DNA from: a virus
Direction: 5' to 3' (one strand)
Virus record (IMG/VR): IMGVR_UViG_3300044970_000539
Location: 41,136 to 105,135 of that record
DNA: 64,000 bases
The notes under the pieces are model-generated. The model was not told the DNA's origin, did no database searches, and saw only the letters and a program-made list of their open reading frames with translations. Below, one piece after another: positions 16,755 through 35,000 of this stretch (positions within the stretch are counted from its first letter, which is position 1; each line of letters begins with the position of its first letter). The position numbers were made by a program, and so were the translations under genes.

Positions 16755-16825
16755 TAGACCTAGAAGGTAATGCTCCTTCTTCTCAGGATTAAAAGTCCTG
16801 AGCATCACTTTAATGCTTTAGGTCC
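16755..16825 (-). tRNA. tRNA-Lys (TTT), non-canonical loops
   Basis: Acceptor GGACCTA/TAGGTCT, D stem GCAT/ATGC, anticodon stem CAGGA/TCCTG with anticodon TTT, T stem GAAGG/CCTTC. The T loop reads AGCATTA instead of the usual TTCRANY, and the D loop lacks GG, so the elbow may be unusual. Identity is clear from the anticodon arm; functionality is less certain. Confidence 0.8.
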
Positions 16826-17861: not shown

Positions 17862-18014
17862 TTATTCTACCAAATTTTCTTTTATTTCTTTTAAAACATT
17901 ATTTTTAATTTTAAACATGTTGTAATACTCATCAAGACTTCTTATTTTAACCCTTCTATTAGATTTTGAATTAATAACTAAGTCTTTATAATAATATAAT
18001 TTATCATTATTCAT
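17862..18014 (-). CDS. 50-residue protein matching the C-terminal tail of the 35225/37463 family
   Basis: Starts at ATG 18014 inside the 3' end of the neighbour and ends at 17862. Its last 25 residues (RSLDEYYNMFKIKNN, VLKEIKENLVE) match the C-terminal ends of the 246- and 257-residue proteins at 35225-35965 and 37463-38236 (VLKEIKKNVISD, VLFEIKNNLLD). It could be a stand-alone module or the remnant of a larger gene. A longer frame up to 18062 exists but only overlaps the neighbour. Confidence 0.65.
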   Translation of the reverse strand: MNNDKLYYYKDLVINSKSNRRVKIRSLDEYYNMFKIKNNVLKEIKENLVE

Positions 18015-18699
18015 ATGTTTTTTTAAACCACTTATTATTCTTATAGTTTCCATAAAAAACATTCATAGATCTTGCTCTTTCATCATTATCCTCTTGTTGC
18101 ATACTTAAATCTTTTTCTGCTTTCCAGTTTTCTCTTTTAAATGGAAGAATTTGTAAAATTGGAGTTCCCTTTTCTATTAAACCAGAAAACCCAGTTTTTA
18201 AGAAAAATGGAACTTGACCACCAAACATAATTTTTTCTGCATCAACAATTCCAGTGGAACTTAAAAATGGAAGTTCATATCTATTAAATGGATGAGAAAT
18301 AAGCAAGGAGTATCCTGGAGGAGTTTTCATTGCATATGGCAATCTCCACATATAATGCATTGTTTCATCATATCCAGCAGGTGTTGGAACGTTTGTTGTT
18401 TCAGATTTTCTTTGTTGAAATGGTGGAACATTTCCAGCCCACTTAATTGACTTATCTTTTTCATCAAAAAATATATCACACCAAAGTTCAATTGTGTATC
18501 CAGATAGAAGAGTATCAAAAAATGGAATACAAGATTTTAGATTTTTTGCTGCATTATTATTTTTATCAAAAACCATGTTTGATTTATTATATGCTTTTAT
18601 GGATTTAAACCAGTCTGGAATATAATTTTTTGATGGACCTATATCATCAATTCCAGTATCTAATGGTGTATATTTAAAAATATTTTTGTTTTTCCACAT
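18007..18699 (-). CDS. unknown phage protein family A, copy 1
   Basis: 230 residues from ATG 18699 (GAAGGG upstream; this start aligns with the paralogue). Shared blocks with 34248-35000: NYIPDWFKSI, CIPFFDTLLSGYTIELW, PPGYSLLISHPFNRYELPFLSSTGIVDAE, and KGTPILQILPFKREN. No catalytic residues are recognised; the conserved Pro/Gly/Trp pattern suggests a beta-rich fold of unknown role. A - strand promoter TTGCAA (18770-18775), 17 bp, TACAAT (18747-18752) is plausible. Confidence 0.75.
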   Translation of the reverse strand: MWKNKNIFKYTPLDTGIDDIGPSKNYIPDWFKSIKAYNKSNMVFDKNNNAAKNLKSCIPFFDTLLSGYTIELWCDIFFDEKDKSIKWAGNVPPFQQRKSETTNVPTPAGYDETMHYMWRLPYAMKTPPGYSLLISHPFNRYELPFLSSTGIVDAEKIMFGGQVPFFLKTGFSGLIEKGTPILQILPFKRENWKAEKDLSMQQEDNDERARSMNVFYGNYKNNKWFKKTYE

Positions 18700-18793
18700 A
18701 GTTAAACCCTTCTTTATTGTTGACATTTTGTTTAGAATACCTTTTAATTGTATCATATTGAAAAAATTTTTGCAAGTATGGTAGAATTATAAT

Positions 18794-20433: not shown

Positions 20434-21006
20434 TCACCCTTGGTTAGCAGGCTTCAACTTGCTCAAATAGTATTTATACTCTGAGACTAATCTAGATTTC
20501 TTACTGGAGTTACATTTCCTACAAAGAGGCTGAAGGTTTCCAATTGAATGGTTTCCCGACCTAGATATGGGAATAATATGATCCATCGTAATCTTTTCTG
20601 TTGCCCCGCAGAAGGCACAGGGAGAGTTATAGAGACGTTTATACTCTTTATCTAATATCTTATAACTCTTGGCATCTTTGGCTATCTTACGCTTGATATG
20701 GGAGTTGGCTACATGAAGGGTAAATCTTTCACGGTTTGCTTGATTCCAAGCCTTAGCAGTTGCTACACGCCTTGCACTATTTTCTTGACGATAGATAGCC
20801 TTCTTAGTCATATAAACTTGATCTTGCTTTTGTTTTACCCAACGCTCTTTATTTTTCTTTTGCCATTGCTTTTTATATTTCTCTGGATTAGCCTTTTGCC
20901 AAGCCTTAGAATACTCTTTGGCACATGGCTTACATTGTGACTGACCTTTATAAAAGTCTGTGACAAGGCAGGTCTTTTGACATTTTCTGCAAACCTTTGT
21001 ATCCAT
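20434..21006 (-). CDS. HNH endonuclease with N-terminal zinc ribbon
   Basis: 190 residues. The N-terminus has CRKCQK and QCKPC (zinc ribbon), then a long basic, Trp-rich helical region (SKAWQKANPEKYKKQWQKK). The C-terminal HNH module reads CAFCGATEKITMDHIIPIS, then NLQPLCRKCNSSK, with DH as the metal-binding pair. Possibly a homing-type or packaging-associated endonuclease. Leaderless promoter: TTGACA (21041-21036), 17 bp, TAGAAT (21018-21013), 6 nt to the ATG. Confidence 0.9.
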   Translation of the reverse strand: MDTKVCRKCQKTCLVTDFYKGQSQCKPCAKEYSKAWQKANPEKYKKQWQKKNKERWVKQKQDQVYMTKKAIYRQENSARRVATAKAWNQANRERFTLHVANSHIKRKIAKDAKSYKILDKEYKRLYNSPCAFCGATEKITMDHIIPISRSGNHSIGNLQPLCRKCNSSKKSRLVSEYKYYLSKLKPANQG

Positions 21007-21037
21007 ATACCTATTCTACCAATTTTGCCAGGGTATG

Positions 21038-21205
21038 TCAAGAATGCTCTTTACACACAGGCATAGGAATATCTTCTACTGGTATAAACATATGTCTAGG
21101 TTTGCGACATATATAGCATAGGCTCCAGGGGACTATGTTCTTGAATTTAATGTCATTAAAGTACTTTTGCTGTAGAGACTTTCGTTCATCATTAGATAGT
21201 CCCAT
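21038..21205 (-). CDS. 55-residue zinc protein, leaderless
   Basis: From ATG 21205, which lies 6 nt after a - strand TATAAT (21217-21212). LCYICRKPRHMF and MPVCKEH provide a C-x2-C...C-x2-H zinc site. A longer frame starting at 21241 would begin upstream of the predicted transcript start. Function unknown. Confidence 0.75.
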   Translation of the reverse strand: MGLSNDERKSLQQKYFNDIKFKNIVPWSLCYICRKPRHMFIPVEDIPMPVCKEHS

Positions 21206-21211
21206 ATGCTG

Positions 21212-21226
21212 ATTATAGCCTATAAT
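21212..21226. promoter_or_regulatory. palindromic divergent leaderless promoter pair
   Basis: A 15-bp perfect inverted repeat (ATTATAG-C-CTATAAT) contains a -10 hexamer on each strand: 21212-21217 for the - strand gene and 21221-21226 for the + strand gene. Each is exactly 6 nt from its ATG (21205 and 21233). Confidence 0.75.
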
Positions 21227-21232
21227 GTATGC

Positions 21233-21550
21233 ATGGAGCAAGCCATACTATACCTACTATACAGTCCAGAGCATAAGGCTATTAAGATAGGCATATCAGA
21301 TATCTCAGGTAAAAGGTTTGCAAGCCACAGGACCAAAGGTTGGATCTTGATTAAGTATTGGCATTTTTTTGAACGGTATAGGGCAAAAGAAGTAGAAACT
21401 ACAGTACTAAGAACACTAAGGGATAGATACGGACACTATCTAACTAAAGAACAAATGCCTCATGGGGGATATACGGAGACATTTGATGCAAATAAAGTAA
21501 CCAGGAGGATGTTGATCCGTATGGTTAATAAGGCGATTAAAGAGGTTTGA
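21233..21550 (+). CDS. GIY-YIG / T5orf172-like protein
   Basis: 105 residues from ATG 21233, 6 nt after TATAAT. AILYLLYSPEHKAIKIGISD has the Y-L...K-I-G-I-S core of GIY-YIG/T5orf172 domains, followed by RFASHRTKGWILIKYWHF (with the expected Arg) and EVETTVLRTLRDRYG (catalytic-type Glu). Possibly a nuclease. The frame extends upstream to 21206 but that ATG precedes the transcript start. Confidence 0.7.
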   Translation: MEQAILYLLYSPEHKAIKIGISDISGKRFASHRTKGWILIKYWHFFERYRAKEVETTVLRTLRDRYGHYLTKEQMPHGGYTETFDANKVTRRMLIRMVNKAIKEV

Positions 21551-21552
21551 GA

Positions 21553-21672
21553 CTATTGCTTTAATGGCATAACAGCATCACATATACAGATGATTGACTC
21601 TGGCAATGTATGGACTTTAGTATTGATTGCAATAGTTGTTGCACACTCTGGACACTTGTATGTATTCTTCAT
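21553..21672 (-). CDS. 39-residue zinc-ribbon micro-protein
   Basis: MKNTYKCPECATTIAINTK then IICICDA: two CxxC knuckles. TATGAT on the - strand (21684-21679) is 6 nt from the ATG, in the leaderless register. Convergent with the GIY-YIG-like gene. Confidence 0.6.
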   Translation of the reverse strand: MKNTYKCPECATTIAINTKVHTLPESIICICDAVMPLKQ

Positions 21673-22419
21673 ATACCCATCATATCATAGAGTTATCCAC
21701 AGGTTTTATGTTAGAAATGTCATAGTTATCCACAAGTTATCCACAATTAAATGTTACTGATATTTTTTAGATTTATCCCAAAGTGGAGGAAAGTGGAGGA
21801 TAGTGGTTTATGGAGCACTTTTATAGAGGGCGTTCGTAATGTCGCAGAGCGCCAAACCTCCTACCATAAAACCTTTACATTGTCAAACCTTCATATTTGG
21901 ATAGCGGATTATACTCCCAAACCTCTATATTGTCAAGTATATTTGATAACAATTTGATAACAAACCCCTATATAAAACCTCTCAAAATGTGAGAAAAATG
22001 TAGAAAAACCTCTATAAAAATATATAAAGGTTTGATAAATATTCTAAAATCCAGGGAAAAATATATGTCCTTCGTAATGTCTTTTATACTATAGGGTTTG
22101 GTATATCTTTTGATCCCCCGCTGCAGAATGTCTGATAATCCTGGGTTTCATTGCAGGGCGGGGGATAAATAAAGAGAGTTCGTAATACCCCTATAGTAAT
22201 AACAAACCATACATTCTGGTTTTTGGATATAGAGGTTTGAAAGATATGAGTTTATATGATATAAGGTTTGACAAACAAGGTTTGATATGCTAGAATCCTG
22301 GGAAATTTATAGGTCGTTCGTAATCTTTTTTATTGGGATATAAGGTTTGATCGAAAACCCTGCGAATTTTTTAGAAGGTTCGTAATAAGGTTTGGTGTGT
22401 AAAAGGTTTTTCGAAAATC
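21673..22419. other. non-coding repeat region with DnaA boxes: replication-origin candidate
   Basis: No convincing gene in about 750 bp. Three exact TTATCCACA boxes lie at 21693, 21726 and 21737. CAAACCT-type repeats occupy 21853-22011 (about six) and the inverted form AGGTTTG fills 22028-22400 (about eight), switching orientation around an AT-rich inverted repeat near 22006-22033. GTTCGTAAT or TTCGTAAT occurs five times, all in one orientation (21832, 22071, 22178, 22316, 22378). This is iteron-like architecture; an origin function is inference. Confidence 0.6.
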
Positions 22420-22698
22420 TCAGTCTTCAGCAGCAGAGATTTCCAAAACCTCATCAAGGGTCATGCCTTCAATGATGTCATCTTCAGTAAGTTTAATAGA
22501 CTCAAGAAACATTTCAAATGTGTCAGCAATGTATCTGCGACCATCATCTGAAACCTCAACAACCAAACCCTGTGATGTTAGATATGCCAATGGCAATCCG
22601 AGATCGTTGTATTCTATAAAGGCTCTGAAGTCTTTCTCTTCTTTATAGTTTTCATACAACTCCCCCAGGATTACACACTGTGTTACAAAATCTGTCAC
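22420..22698 (-). CDS. unknown acidic protein
   Basis: 92 residues. GLPLAYLTSQGLVVEVSDDGRRYIADTFEMFLESIK suggests a small winged-helix-like or beta-hairpin fold, but nothing is diagnostic. Third gene of a three-gene operon; the start overlaps the upstream stop by 4 bp. Confidence 0.7.
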   Translation of the reverse strand: MTDFVTQCVILGELYENYKEEKDFRAFIEYNDLGLPLAYLTSQGLVVEVSDDGRRYIADTFEMFLESIKLTEDDIIEGMTLDEVLEISAAED

Positions 22699-22973
22699 TC
22701 TTTAACTTCCTGTGCCCTGAAAAAGTCTAGAGCCGTGTCATACATAACTTCTGGGTCAAGGTCACGCATCTCGCAAAGTTCTCTCCATGCATACTCTAAC
22801 TCAAACTCACCAAGAGATGTAAGTGTTACCCACTCTGCTGCGACATACTCTGCTAACTTTAGTTCATCTACAAGCCCTGCCCAAAAATCAATTGGTAGGT
22901 AAGACACCTCTACAAGGCTTTCAGCCTCAATACTAATGTAAGCCAAAATGTCTGCTATCTTGTTATAATCCAT
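22695..22973 (-). CDS. unknown acidic protein
   Basis: 92 residues, helical and acidic. WVTLTSLGEFELEYAWREL resembles the hairpin seen in its downstream neighbour, so the two may be distant paralogues of equal length. It overlaps both neighbours. Confidence 0.7.
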   Translation of the reverse strand: MDYNKIADILAYISIEAESLVEVSYLPIDFWAGLVDELKLAEYVAAEWVTLTSLGEFELEYAWRELCEMRDLDPEVMYDTALDFFRAQEVKE

Positions 22974-23190
22974 GTCTCCACCGTTCCATTTGTAGTTTAG
23001 GGTCTAGAATACCTTCTTTTTCATACTCTGCACTTTCAATTATAGCAATTAAACGAGTGTATGTCAAGTGTGGCAATACCCTAGCAAGCATTATGCCTGT
23101 CTGTTCAAGGTCTAGATTTAAGTCCTCAATAATAGGTTTAATTCGCATAGCCACACGCTCTTCTGGCGTGATACCTCTACTAATTCTCAA
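22963..23190 (-). CDS. unknown helical protein, TTG start
   Basis: 75 residues. TTG 23190 is placed by GGGGGA a few nt upstream and by an upstream - strand TATAAT. MRISRGITPEERVAMRIKPIIEDLNLDLEQTGIMLARVL looks like a small all-helical DNA-binding-size protein. First gene of the operon. Confidence 0.65.
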   Translation of the reverse strand: MRISRGITPEERVAMRIKPIIEDLNLDLEQTGIMLARVLPHLTYTRLIAIIESAEYEKEGILDPKLQMERWRHGL

Positions 23191-23303
23191 AGCGTCCCCC
23201 TTCTATCCATTATACCAAAAGTATAGGGGGAGGGCAACCCACCACAGATGCCCTCCACCCTTTGGCATAGTCTGACCCTAGATCTATGCCTGCTCATTGT
23301 AAA

Positions 23304-24573: not shown

Positions 24574-24743
24574 TATCTATCCTTTCGTAAAGAGGTTTCT
24601 CGCAGGGCAGGGTCAAAGATTTCGCAGTAGCAGACATGGCATAGCATGAAGTTATCAGCCTCATCAACATTAAGTTTATTCTTGCATACTGTGCAGTCGT
24701 ATTCAGTAAAGGTGGCAAATCGGGTGTAAATTACATTGGTCAT
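24573..24743 (-). CDS. 56-residue zinc-ribbon protein
   Basis: YDCTVCKNKL and MLCHVCYCEIF give two CxxC pairs. A - strand TATAAT (24756-24751) lies 7 nt before the ATG, close to the leaderless register; no ribosome site is visible. Confidence 0.65.
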   Translation of the reverse strand: MTNVIYTRFATFTEYDCTVCKNKLNVDEADNFMLCHVCYCEIFDPALRETSLRKDR

Positions 24744-24747
24744 AATA

Positions 24748-24963
24748 CTAATTATACGGGTTGGTGTTGATTTTCACAAGCCCACGGGGTGTGACCTTGC
24801 TCACATCTGTAATGATAGGGGCATTTCCATCTTCTTCTGATATTAGGACAACTATTCCATACCCTCCACAAATACAGGCAGGATCAAGAACCTTATCAGC
24901 ACAAGCAGTGATTTGAATCAGCGCATCACAATCAGTACATAGATAATCATACTTAGTCCACAT
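24748..24963 (-). CDS. 71-residue zinc protein
   Basis: YLCTDCDALIQITACADKVLDPACICGG carries two CxxC/CxC elements. It overlaps the upstream gene by 11 bp. A TGTGA-N6-TCACA palindrome (24790-24805) lies inside the coding sequence. Confidence 0.65.
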   Translation of the reverse strand: MWTKYDYLCTDCDALIQITACADKVLDPACICGGYGIVVLISEEDGNAPIITDVSKVTPRGLVKINTNPYN

Positions 24964-25096
24964 TGATTACTCCCCAGCACTTATCGCAGGTAAAGCCATT
25001 AGGTAGGGAAACATCATCAACTCTATCTCCTTCTACCCCATCCCAGCAGGGTACACAAATAACACAATCATCTAAGTAAACACCAATAGTATTCAT
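24953..25096 (-). CDS. 47-residue zinc-binding micro-protein
   Basis: DCVICVPCWDG and GFTCDKCWGV provide two pairs of Cys (CxxCxxC and CxxC). It overlaps the previous stop. Function unknown. Confidence 0.6.
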   Translation of the reverse strand: MNTIGVYLDDCVICVPCWDGVEGDRVDDVSLPNGFTCDKCWGVINVD

Positions 25097-25245
25097 TAGT
25101 CAAAATACCCTTCTGCCCATAAGCCCTGGAGAAACTGTTGTGCCATTAAGATACCCTCTTTATCATCAGGGTCAGTTATATACTTATATGAATTGTGTAC
25201 AGCATTGCTCATCTTATCTAAATCATCAATGGTATAACCTAACAT
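25096..25245 (-). CDS. 49-residue unknown protein
   Basis: MLGYTIDDLDKMSNAVHNSY... helical and acidic. GGGGAG lies 5 nt before ATG 25245, inside the upstream gene's end. Coupled. Confidence 0.65.
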   Translation of the reverse strand: MLGYTIDDLDKMSNAVHNSYKYITDPDDKEGILMAQQFLQGLWAEGYFD

Positions 25246-25406
25246 TATTCTCCCCAATATTCTACTATAAGGTTTAATGCACTACAGATACGGCAATCAC
25301 AAGGGTCTCCCCCCATGTTTTCCATAAATTCAATGTGAGAGAAATTATCCTCACAGATTTGTTCAACAAGGTCTTTTACTGTGTAAGGTTTGAATGTGGT
25401 AGTCAT
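25245..25406 (-). CDS. 53-residue Cys-containing protein, operon leader
   Basis: Helical N-terminus, then MGGDPCDCRICSALN with C-x-C-x2-C. The first gene of the 25406 to 23304 operon: - strand TATAAT (25418-25413) is exactly 6 nt before the ATG, with TTGTAT as a partial -35 at 17 bp. Leaderless. Confidence 0.65.
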   Translation of the reverse strand: MTTTFKPYTVKDLVEQICEDNFSHIEFMENMGGDPCDCRICSALNLIVEYWGE

Positions 25407-25495
25407 ATATTAATTATAGCCGAAATCCTAGAAAAATACAAATCCTTACGTAATCGTAAAGTGTGTTTAATATCACATTGTCGAAAAATTTCTTG

Positions 25496-30587: not shown

Positions 30588-30762
30588 GACACGCCCAAAG
30601 GTAATAGACTTTCTTTTATTTATTTTTTCTTACTATGTAAGTCTAGCCTATTAGACAAAAAATCTCAAGTTACTTATGAGTAATCTTAAATAGTGAGACG
30701 CTCAAGCCATGTGACAAATCTCACAAATCTAGCCTGTGGATAACTCTGTGGAAGACACGCCC
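30588..30762. promoter_or_regulatory. regulatory cluster: GACACGCCC repeats, CRP-type site, DnaA box
   Basis: GACACGCCC at 30588 and 30754; TGTGA-N6-TCACA at 30710-30725 (spacer CAAATC); TGTGGATAA (DnaA box, - orientation) at 30735-30743. No gene is seen in 30524-30814. The CRP-type site is about 168 bp from promoter (e), further than for the other sites. Confidence 0.55.
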
Positions 30763-33753: not shown

Positions 33754-34083
33754 ATGATTCTTACAGAAAAAGCAAAACAAAAAGTTTCGGAACTCATAGG
33801 AGACTCTCGCATATCTATCCCAGATAGAGAGATCTTCCTAAGAATCTCTGTTCAGCCTGGTGGATGTTCTGGACTTAGATATCAAACCTTCTTTGACTAT
33901 GAAAAGTTAGACGGAGATACGGATTATAACTTTGAAGACTTTACATTAAAGTTAGATAGAATGTCTGTTCCTTATTTACAAGGGGCTACGCTTGATTTCG
34001 TTGACACAATTGAAAAACAAGGTTTTGTACTTGACAATCCCAATGCTCAAGGATCTTGTGCATGCGGAGACAGTTTTAACTAA
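33754..34083 (+). CDS. A-type iron-sulfur carrier (IscA/ErpA/HesB family)
   Basis: 109 residues. MILTEKAKQKVSELI, then LRISVQPGGCSGLRYQTFFD (Cys38), and the C-terminal GSCACGDSF (Cys102, Cys104) reproduce the three conserved Cys of A-type carriers. These bind Fe-S clusters and pass them to apoproteins; here candidates include WhiB and the Cys-rich GP88-like protein. Leaderless: TATAAT 33742-33747 is 6 nt before the ATG. Confidence 0.93.
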   Translation: MILTEKAKQKVSELIGDSRISIPDREIFLRISVQPGGCSGLRYQTFFDYEKLDGDTDYNFEDFTLKLDRMSVPYLQGATLDFVDTIEKQGFVLDNPNAQGSCACGDSFN

Positions 34084-34247: not shown

Positions 34248-35000
34248 TTACTCTTCTAACCTATCTCTAAGGTTTTCTAAAAATCCTTTTTTAGGTTTAT
34301 CACGATCTCTTTGGTTTTTTCTGTAAATTCCAGTTGGTGTAAATCTTGCAAATGTATCGAGCATCTGTAAGTTAAACTTTTTTAATTCTTTTTCATTAGC
34401 ATCTCCTACTTCTAGTTTATGCTTTTCTCTTTTAAACGGGATGTATAAAACAAAAGCCTCTCCAGCCTTTATAACAACCCTTTCTTTGTCGCTATGGAAT
34501 AGTAGTTGCTGATTTAATTCGTGGTGTATATCTGTATCAACAATTCCAGGTAGCACTGTCCAATTTTTATTAAAGTTATAAAATATAGGCAACTGCAATA
34601 CAGACCAACCAGGTTCAGTAATTGCATACCAAGGACATACAGACTTAAATATAAACTCAGATTTAACTCCAAGGTTTGAAGCATCTGTATAATCTAAGAA
34701 TTGTGAGTTTGGATGAATTGACCATTTATCAAAACCAGGAGATGATTTTGCAGAAAAAGAACGAGTCTCTTTATCATAAGCAAGATCTGAGTCCATCCAC
34801 ATGGGCAGAATATATCCTTGTGAAAAATAATCTGGCAATGCAGGACATACCCTAGCAGTACTAACTGGACCGTCCTCTGTATTTACACTTGCAGGCATAG
34901 ATTTAAACCATTCAGGTATAAACGCCTTTGCAGGTTTTGGCCTTGCCCATTCAAGTTCTGATAAACCTGGAACCCTGCTAACAAATCTTATTTTACTCAT
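34248..35000 (-). CDS. unknown phage protein family A, copy 2
   Basis: 250 residues. FIPEWFKSMPA, CPALPDYFSQGYILPMWMD, EPGWSVLQLPIFYNFNKNWTVLPGIVDTD and AFVLYIPFKREKHKLEV align with the 18007-18699 product. The recurring IVD and PFKRE blocks may be functional, but no known catalytic motif is visible. Located within a three-gene - strand group with family B and a zinc protein. Confidence 0.8.
   Translation of the reverse strand: MSKIRFVSRVPGLSELEWARPKPAKAFIPEWFKSMPASVNTEDGPVSTARVCPALPDYFSQGYILPMWMDSDLAYDKETRSFSAKSSPGFDKWSIHPNSQFLDYTDASNLGVKSEFIFKSVCPWYAITEPGWSVLQLPIFYNFNKNWTVLPGIVDTDIHHELNQQLLFHSDKERVVIKAGEAFVLYIPFKREKHKLEVGDANEKELKKFNLQMLDTFARFTPTGIYRKNQRDRDKPKKGFLENLRDRLEE

Follow-up and report, generated by a model that had tools for sequence, protein, structure and literature searches.

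Does the gene-free stretch at positions 21673-22419 serve as the replication origin of the phage that carries it and, if so, which of its repeats mark the origin? The stretch belongs to a window of 64,000 nucleotides, the whole DNA analysed, which spans bases 41136-105135 of a viral contig 105,135 bp long. The first 127 bases of the contig are identical to the last 127. Hence, the assembly is circular, and the genome is probably complete with a length of ~105.0 kb. The best named relatives of its DnaE-type polymerase (~55% identity) and portal protein (~45% identity) are Streptomyces phages of Stanwilliamsviridae. The literature searches made gave no description of an origin in this group of large actinobacterial phages.

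Repeats in the gene-free stretch

The stretch lies between genes of the same direction and contains no conserved ORF; the plus-strand ORFs (56 and 68 aa) are broken by indels in relatives, in agreement with the initial annotation of the region as gene-free. A nucleotide search with positions 21000-23200 against the phage collection gave zero matches, and the product of the 92-aa gene on the right edge had no relative in genome contigs, in a search aimed at host assignment. The features of the stretch are listed in Table 1.

The three exact TTATCCACA DnaA boxes reported earlier at the left edge were confirmed. The reported orientation switch near 22020 is also real, with 3 exact CAAACCT copies on the left and 6 exact AGGTTTG copies on the right, and the switch point carries the AT-rich inverted repeat described there (22006-22033, AAACCTCTATAAAAATATATAAAGGTTT). 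The count of roughly 14 copies holds for the hexamer AGGTTT/AAACCT (AAACCT occurs six times to the left of 22020, and AGGTTT seven times to the right and once at 21701), while the exact heptamers number 9. Only 4 intergenic heptamers lie outside the array. Five same-strand TTCGTAAT modules, a leftward 12/12 promoter and the GTGGAG 10-bp repeats had been overlooked.

The chance expectation was estimated from 200 dinucleotide shuffles of the whole 64-kb window. None of the 200 contained three TTATCCACA in 60 bp (shuffle maximum 1), nine heptamers in 750 bp (maximum 4) or five same-strand TTCGTAAT in 600 bp (maximum 2).

Table 1. Features of the gene-free stretch and its right edge (window positions).
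Feature	Position	Strand	Remarks
Three DnaA boxes, TTATCCACA	21693, 21726, 21737 (21693..21745)	+	spacings 33 and 11 bp; within 55 bp
Core, TTACTGAT...TCGTAAT	21754..21840	+	87 bp here; basis: 60 independent cores
AT-rich stretch after TTACTGAT	21760..21780	.	near-invariant in close relatives
Three 10-bp-phased repeats, AGTGGAGGAA / AGTGGAGGAT / AGTGGTTTAT	21782..21811	+	consensus GTGGAG.aaAGTGGAGga.AgTGG
Module 1, TCGTAAT ending the core	21834..21840	+	upstream half divergent
Left heptamer arm, CAAACCT	21853, 21884, 21918 (21853..21924)	-	
Sigma-70 promoter, TTGACA-N17-TATAAT	21908..21936	-	12/12; leftwards across core and DnaA boxes; heptamer in spacer
Right heptamer arm, AGGTTTG	22028, 22233, 22264, 22278, 22343, 22388 (22028..22394)	+	
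Module 2, GGG ... TTCGTAATGTC	22052..22081	+	32.7 bits; top match in 105-kb contig
GC-rich inverted repeat	arms 22110-22121 / 22158-22169		lineage-variable
Module 3, GGG ... TTCGTAATACC	22160..22189	+	25.4 bits
Promoter-like TTGACA-N17-TAGAAT	22268..22296	+	11/12; mostly close relatives
Module 4, GGG ... TTCGTAATCTT	22298..22327	+	32.6 bits
Module 5, GCG ... TTCGTAATAAG	22360..22389	+	20.7 bits
92-aa gene, function unassigned	22420..22698	-	right-edge marker in viral-contig relatives

Conservation of the layout in related phages

Relatives were collected with the 92-aa right-edge protein (22420-22698), which gave 80 loci, and with a second query from a divergent relative, which gave further loci. 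The regions beyond the 92-aa gene were grouped by common 14-mers into 66 clusters. At least three TCGTAAT were present in 46 of the 66; the clusters without TCGTAAT are mostly other phages that have the 92-aa gene in a different context. An independent comparison did without the 92-aa gene and searched for a DNA pattern made up of two DnaA boxes and TTACTGAT; at least 120 stretches were found, each locus listed with one match. Removal of the known ones from the matches listed left 31 independent clusters. The pattern fixes the DnaA boxes by construction, so that only the modules and the core length are put to the test.

The constant element across relatives is a bipartite repeat in 2-9 copies: GGG at -18..-16, an A/T run, a variable spacer and then (G/C)(T/A)TCGTAATGTC, with TCGTAAT at 0..+6. 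In the 46 clusters, TCGTAAT counts on the two strands were 218:2 (~3 expected on each), with the excess on the DnaA-box strand; selecting clusters by at least three forward copies favours the forward count, though not to a 100-fold excess. The 31 further clusters among the pattern matches listed, which had not been chosen by their forward copies, gave 132:0. When the contig was scored with a PSSM built from relatives, the window being left out, its four best matches all fell inside the array, and the module is essentially confined there. No stoperator-type dispersal over many promoters or intergenic sites was seen for the module in the 105-kb contig. The modules show an iteron-type layout, with multiple direct copies oriented alike next to DnaA boxes and an AT-rich stretch. 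Two promoter readings of the module were rejected. The GGGAAA-to-CGTAAT spacer of 13 nt is shorter than the 16-18 nt usual in ECF-sigma promoters, and no single-subunit RNA polymerase was present among the scanned proteins, the 3198-aa ORF being the tape measure. In five loci (L144, L166, L168, L173 and L192), a far-left ATTACGA copy stands immediately after a TATACT -10-like box (TATACTAGGGATTACGA), as if the module overlapped a transcription start.

The first module ends a core of nearly fixed length. The distance between TTACTG and the first TCGTAAT stays at 84-88 bp in almost all 35 clusters that yielded a core, and at 84-89 bp in 26 new clusters among the pattern matches listed. The order in the core region is DnaA boxes, TTACTGAT, AT-rich stretch, 10-bp-phased GTGGAG repeats and TCGTAAT, and the consensus of 60 independent cores reads TTACTGAT..T.TT..Ta.aT....t..aaGTGGAG.aaAGTGGAGga.AgTGG...AT.GagC..tTTta.a...Gg..TCGTAAT. 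The AT-rich stretch is a candidate unwinding element. No conserved RNA fold was found in the 60 cores and no credible Rfam match in the region, so a structured RNA was rejected. A length kept despite sequence change, without an RNA fold, fits recognition of the DNA by protein at a fixed spacing. The GC-rich hairpin was discarded as a universal part, since it is present in just 11 of 46 clusters (null 3.6%).

Exact DnaA boxes in the 46 clusters number 86 forward and 5 reverse, and of the 74 boxes belonging to clusters with a core, 69 fall within 130 bp to the left of TTACTG. Their spacings in relatives (11-12, 20-23, 32-33, 43-45 and 55 bp) are multiples of one helical turn (~11 bp). This is the oriC-type arrangement of phased DnaA boxes beside AT-rich DNA, and about two-thirds of clusters have at least two exact boxes. 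The remaining third or so do not, which argues that DnaA is not strictly required everywhere; it may help without being indispensable. Further exact TTATCCACA copies at 30735, 31797, 31809 and 33015 are intergenic in the right-hand leftward gene block and adjoin GTCGAAAA sequences, with similar pairs in relatives; they are possible second DnaA-responsive sites.

The heptamer switch is conserved in 25 clusters: the ratio of CAAACCW to WGGTTTG is 98:19 at 0-200 bp from the core and 9:96 at 500-800 bp. Spacings between heptamers of the same orientation in relatives (e.g., L045, L049) pile up at 8, 16, 24-25 and 32 bp, an 8-bp lattice and not the helical repeat. Several relatives that retain the core and modules lack the heptamers or have them replaced. 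A leftward promoter of at least 11/12 occurs in 21 of 35 clusters (null 0.4%), in many of them with a heptamer in the spacer. The heptamers differ from lineage to lineage, follow the 8-bp lattice and coincide in part with a perfect promoter. Their likely role is that of operators bound by a small cooperative protein, and not of main initiator sites.

The cultured relatives carry a comparable gap. In seven annotated Stanwilliamsviridae records, DnaA boxes lie in non-coding DNA, which measures 1.0-1.8 kb in six of them and in BillNye consists of 354 bp and a further gap beside it; the gap carries no origin annotation in the records examined. All eight regions read contain DnaA boxes (on both strands), and in seven of the eight TCGTAA is also present, always on the same strand (19:0) and with a comparable upstream half; the TunaTartare region has zero TCGTAA. 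In BillNye, the boxes lie near the right end, with three TTCGTAA nearby on one strand and none on the other; the TTACTG-GTGGAG core and the AGGTTTG array were not found in this phage. Stanwilliamsviridae (Streptomyces cluster BE) resemble the window in DnaA boxes and, mostly, same-strand TCGTAA modules, and have DnaE and portal genes in common with its phage; unlike the window, they have a GC-content near 50%.

Sequence related to the BillNye non-coding stretch occurs in 35 Streptomyces phage records, two kinds of which are small unrelated phages. About 96 bp of it (L093:15671-15766) recurs at ~80% identity in Forthebois and RickRoss, two Streptomyces phages of 18 kb, and looks like an element passed between unrelated phages. 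A hammerhead motif seen by eye in BillNye had no Rfam support.

Several genes of the window were noted in passing. An HNH gene (20434-21006, -) and an endonuclease-like gene (phrog_681; 21206-21550, +) directly left of the array are absent from the compared relatives, and a TCGTAAT-module-like match of 18.6 bits lies at 20586 within the HNH gene. By eye, the GGCSG and CxC motifs of the ORF at 33754-34083 (+) recall iron-sulfur carriers of the A type. A tRNA at 16755-16825 (-) was reported by Rfam and not by ARAGORN.

Replication genes and the function of the stretch

The genome encodes a DnaB-type helicase, a DnaG-like primase, SSB, a DnaE-type polymerase III alpha subunit and RecA; the helicase, primase, SSB and DnaE genes are ~38 kb from the array. 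Upstream of the helicase are genes for a 180-aa HTH protein (phrog_9440), a 73-aa protein and, directly adjacent to the helicase, a 102-aa protein. Counterparts occur in BillNye, with one extra gene between; there, too, a conserved HTH protein is encoded beside the replication genes. The phrog_9440 protein of this helicase operon is a candidate initiator; its match to an HTH profile of Pfam is weak and misses the cut-off (E 0.0014), and its AlphaFold model is poor (pLDDT 56) and unfit for fold search. The 102-aa protein is a candidate helicase loader; its model is fair (pLDDT 83) and places the SPP1 G39P loader (1no1) at rank 2 in a Foldseek search of the PDB, with non-significant values (E 3.6, prob 0.33). 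The phrog_7084 protein (243 aa, between helicase and primase) was rejected as initiator, as it is missing there in relatives and has scattered paralogues; this copy looks as if it were mobile. Genes at 18007-18756 (-), 34248-35000 (-) and contig 24743-25474 (+) have common best matches in relatives, assigned to phrog_7084 for two of them.

Taken from sequence comparison, the stretch 21673-22419 is a strong candidate for a theta-type replication origin, and we judge this reading probable. An origin with DnaA boxes, as initially proposed, is the best-supported reading; the inverted iteron array of that proposal probably rests on the wrong repeats, since the inverted heptamers change or vanish between relatives, keep to an 8-bp lattice and overlap a promoter, and the constant repeat is the direct, one-strand TCGTAAT module. 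The origin reading is strengthened by the phased DnaA boxes, the fixed-length core, family-wide conservation and the gene-free gap in cultured relatives. The conservation proposed as a check was indeed found: dozens of divergent relatives show the same arrangement of host-initiator boxes and repeats that point one way. Confinement of the motif to the array and the phage's own full replication set were also counted in favour. The GC-skew inflection expected at the array was not observed, a point against an origin; the third-position skew differs across the site, but oppositely for genes of the two strands, and the GC skew of BillNye is flat through the gap. An inflection of strand composition is usual at origins, not universal, and often weak or absent in phages, so this result is not decisive.

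Further points counted against the origin were the clusters with fewer than two exact DnaA boxes, the TunaTartare region devoid of TCGTAA and the weak HTH and G39P matches, and also the strong promoter and the operator-like heptamers, as these two equally fit a multi-operator transcription hub. There, phage regulators bound to the heptamers and TCGTAAT would regulate strong early promoters, either divergent or leftward, with the DnaA boxes serving as DnaA-responsive regulatory sites. The heptamer within the spacer of the 12/12 leftward promoter, recurring in many clusters, the 8-bp lattice expected of cooperative small repressors, the ATTACGA copies behind -10-like boxes in some relatives and the DnaA boxes at other intergenic places of the same genome all agree with such a hub. 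However, the modules occur in one region alone and are not spread over promoters, 2-9 one-strand copies with a fixed-length core are unusual among operators, the flanking genes of the same direction leave few genes controllable rightwards, and it is in this region that the tight, phased DnaA-box clusters sit. A hub in place of an origin seems unlikely. Phage origins can contain promoters, and a mixed function in replication and transcription is quite possible.

A pac-like packaging initiation site for the small terminase could likewise use strand-polar repeats within one non-coding region, and the contig, circular with a 127-bp overlap, does not fix the physical ends. However, the BillNye record ends, with the terminal repeat implied by duplicated gene spacing, are ~5 kb from the gap, and DnaA boxes have no known packaging role, which makes this function very improbable. 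Least probable is a partition (centromere) site, an alternative named in the initial annotation, in which a small centromere-binding protein would bind two arms of short direct repeats: the opposed heptamer arms on their 8-bp lattice do recall the parS sites of the extrachromosomal mycobacteriophage RedRock, with eight 8-bp direct repeats (PMC7157519), but the ParA (PF13614), ParB (PF02195), RHH_1 (PF01402) and tyrosine integrase profiles had no match in the genome, and the heptamers are missing in some relatives that keep the core and modules.

For the theta-type origin, the sequence features, their strand bias, fixed spacing and conservation are observed, while the protein-DNA contacts, unwinding and replication itself are inferred. 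Host DnaA would bind the helically phased TTATCCACA boxes, and the phage initiator the same-strand bipartite modules and perhaps also the GTGGAG repeats. Jointly, they would open the AT-rich stretch after TTACTGAT, on which the helicase of the phage would then load, together with its primase, SSB and DnaE polymerase. The leftward promoter, under heptamer control, could couple initiation to transcription. More tentatively, the stretch may represent a new origin class ancestral to the whole virus family, in which DnaA boxes are joined to polar TCGTAAT modules through the fixed-length core, an HTH initiator acts with its own loader, and fast-evolving heptamers on an 8-bp lattice gate a built-in promoter.

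The shared and precisely placed signature makes the candidate origin locatable in many uncultured phage genomes and testable in cultured Streptomyces phages, with phrog_9440 as a concrete initiator candidate. It also suggests that phages with much of a replisome (helicase, primase, SSB and polymerase) may still recruit host DnaA.

Comparison with known origins

The lambda origin combines repeats for a phage initiator, an AT-rich unwinding region and transcription across the origin (PMC5043065). Repeats, AT-rich DNA and a promoter reading across the core are present in the window as well. However, the lambda iterons are near-perfect 19-bp inverted repeats bound by O, DnaA is not the initiator there, and the window repeats are intergenic and adjoin DnaA boxes. 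Iteron plasmid origins (P1, RK2, F) place direct repeats close to DnaA boxes and AT-rich DNA (PMC5043065), as does the window; unlike these plasmids, it belongs to a phage without detected lysogeny genes, has no Rep gene adjoining the repeats, and spaces its modules irregularly (down to ~35 bp) and not in regular tandem arrays.

Phage SPP1 has direct repeats and an AT-rich unwinding region in oriL and oriR, the latter in a large intergenic region, and its initiator gp38 and loader gp39 genes lie beside that of the DnaB-type helicase gp40 (PMC6316719). Unlike SPP1, the phage analysed here has DnaA boxes as part of the candidate origin, a polar bipartite module of ~25 bp as its repeat, and genes for primase, SSB and DnaE within the same operon. 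As in SPP1, a small protein, here the 102-aa one, is encoded directly upstream of the helicase, and its predicted structure bears a weak, non-significant resemblance to gp39; the candidate initiator phrog_9440 is comparable to gp38 in gene position.
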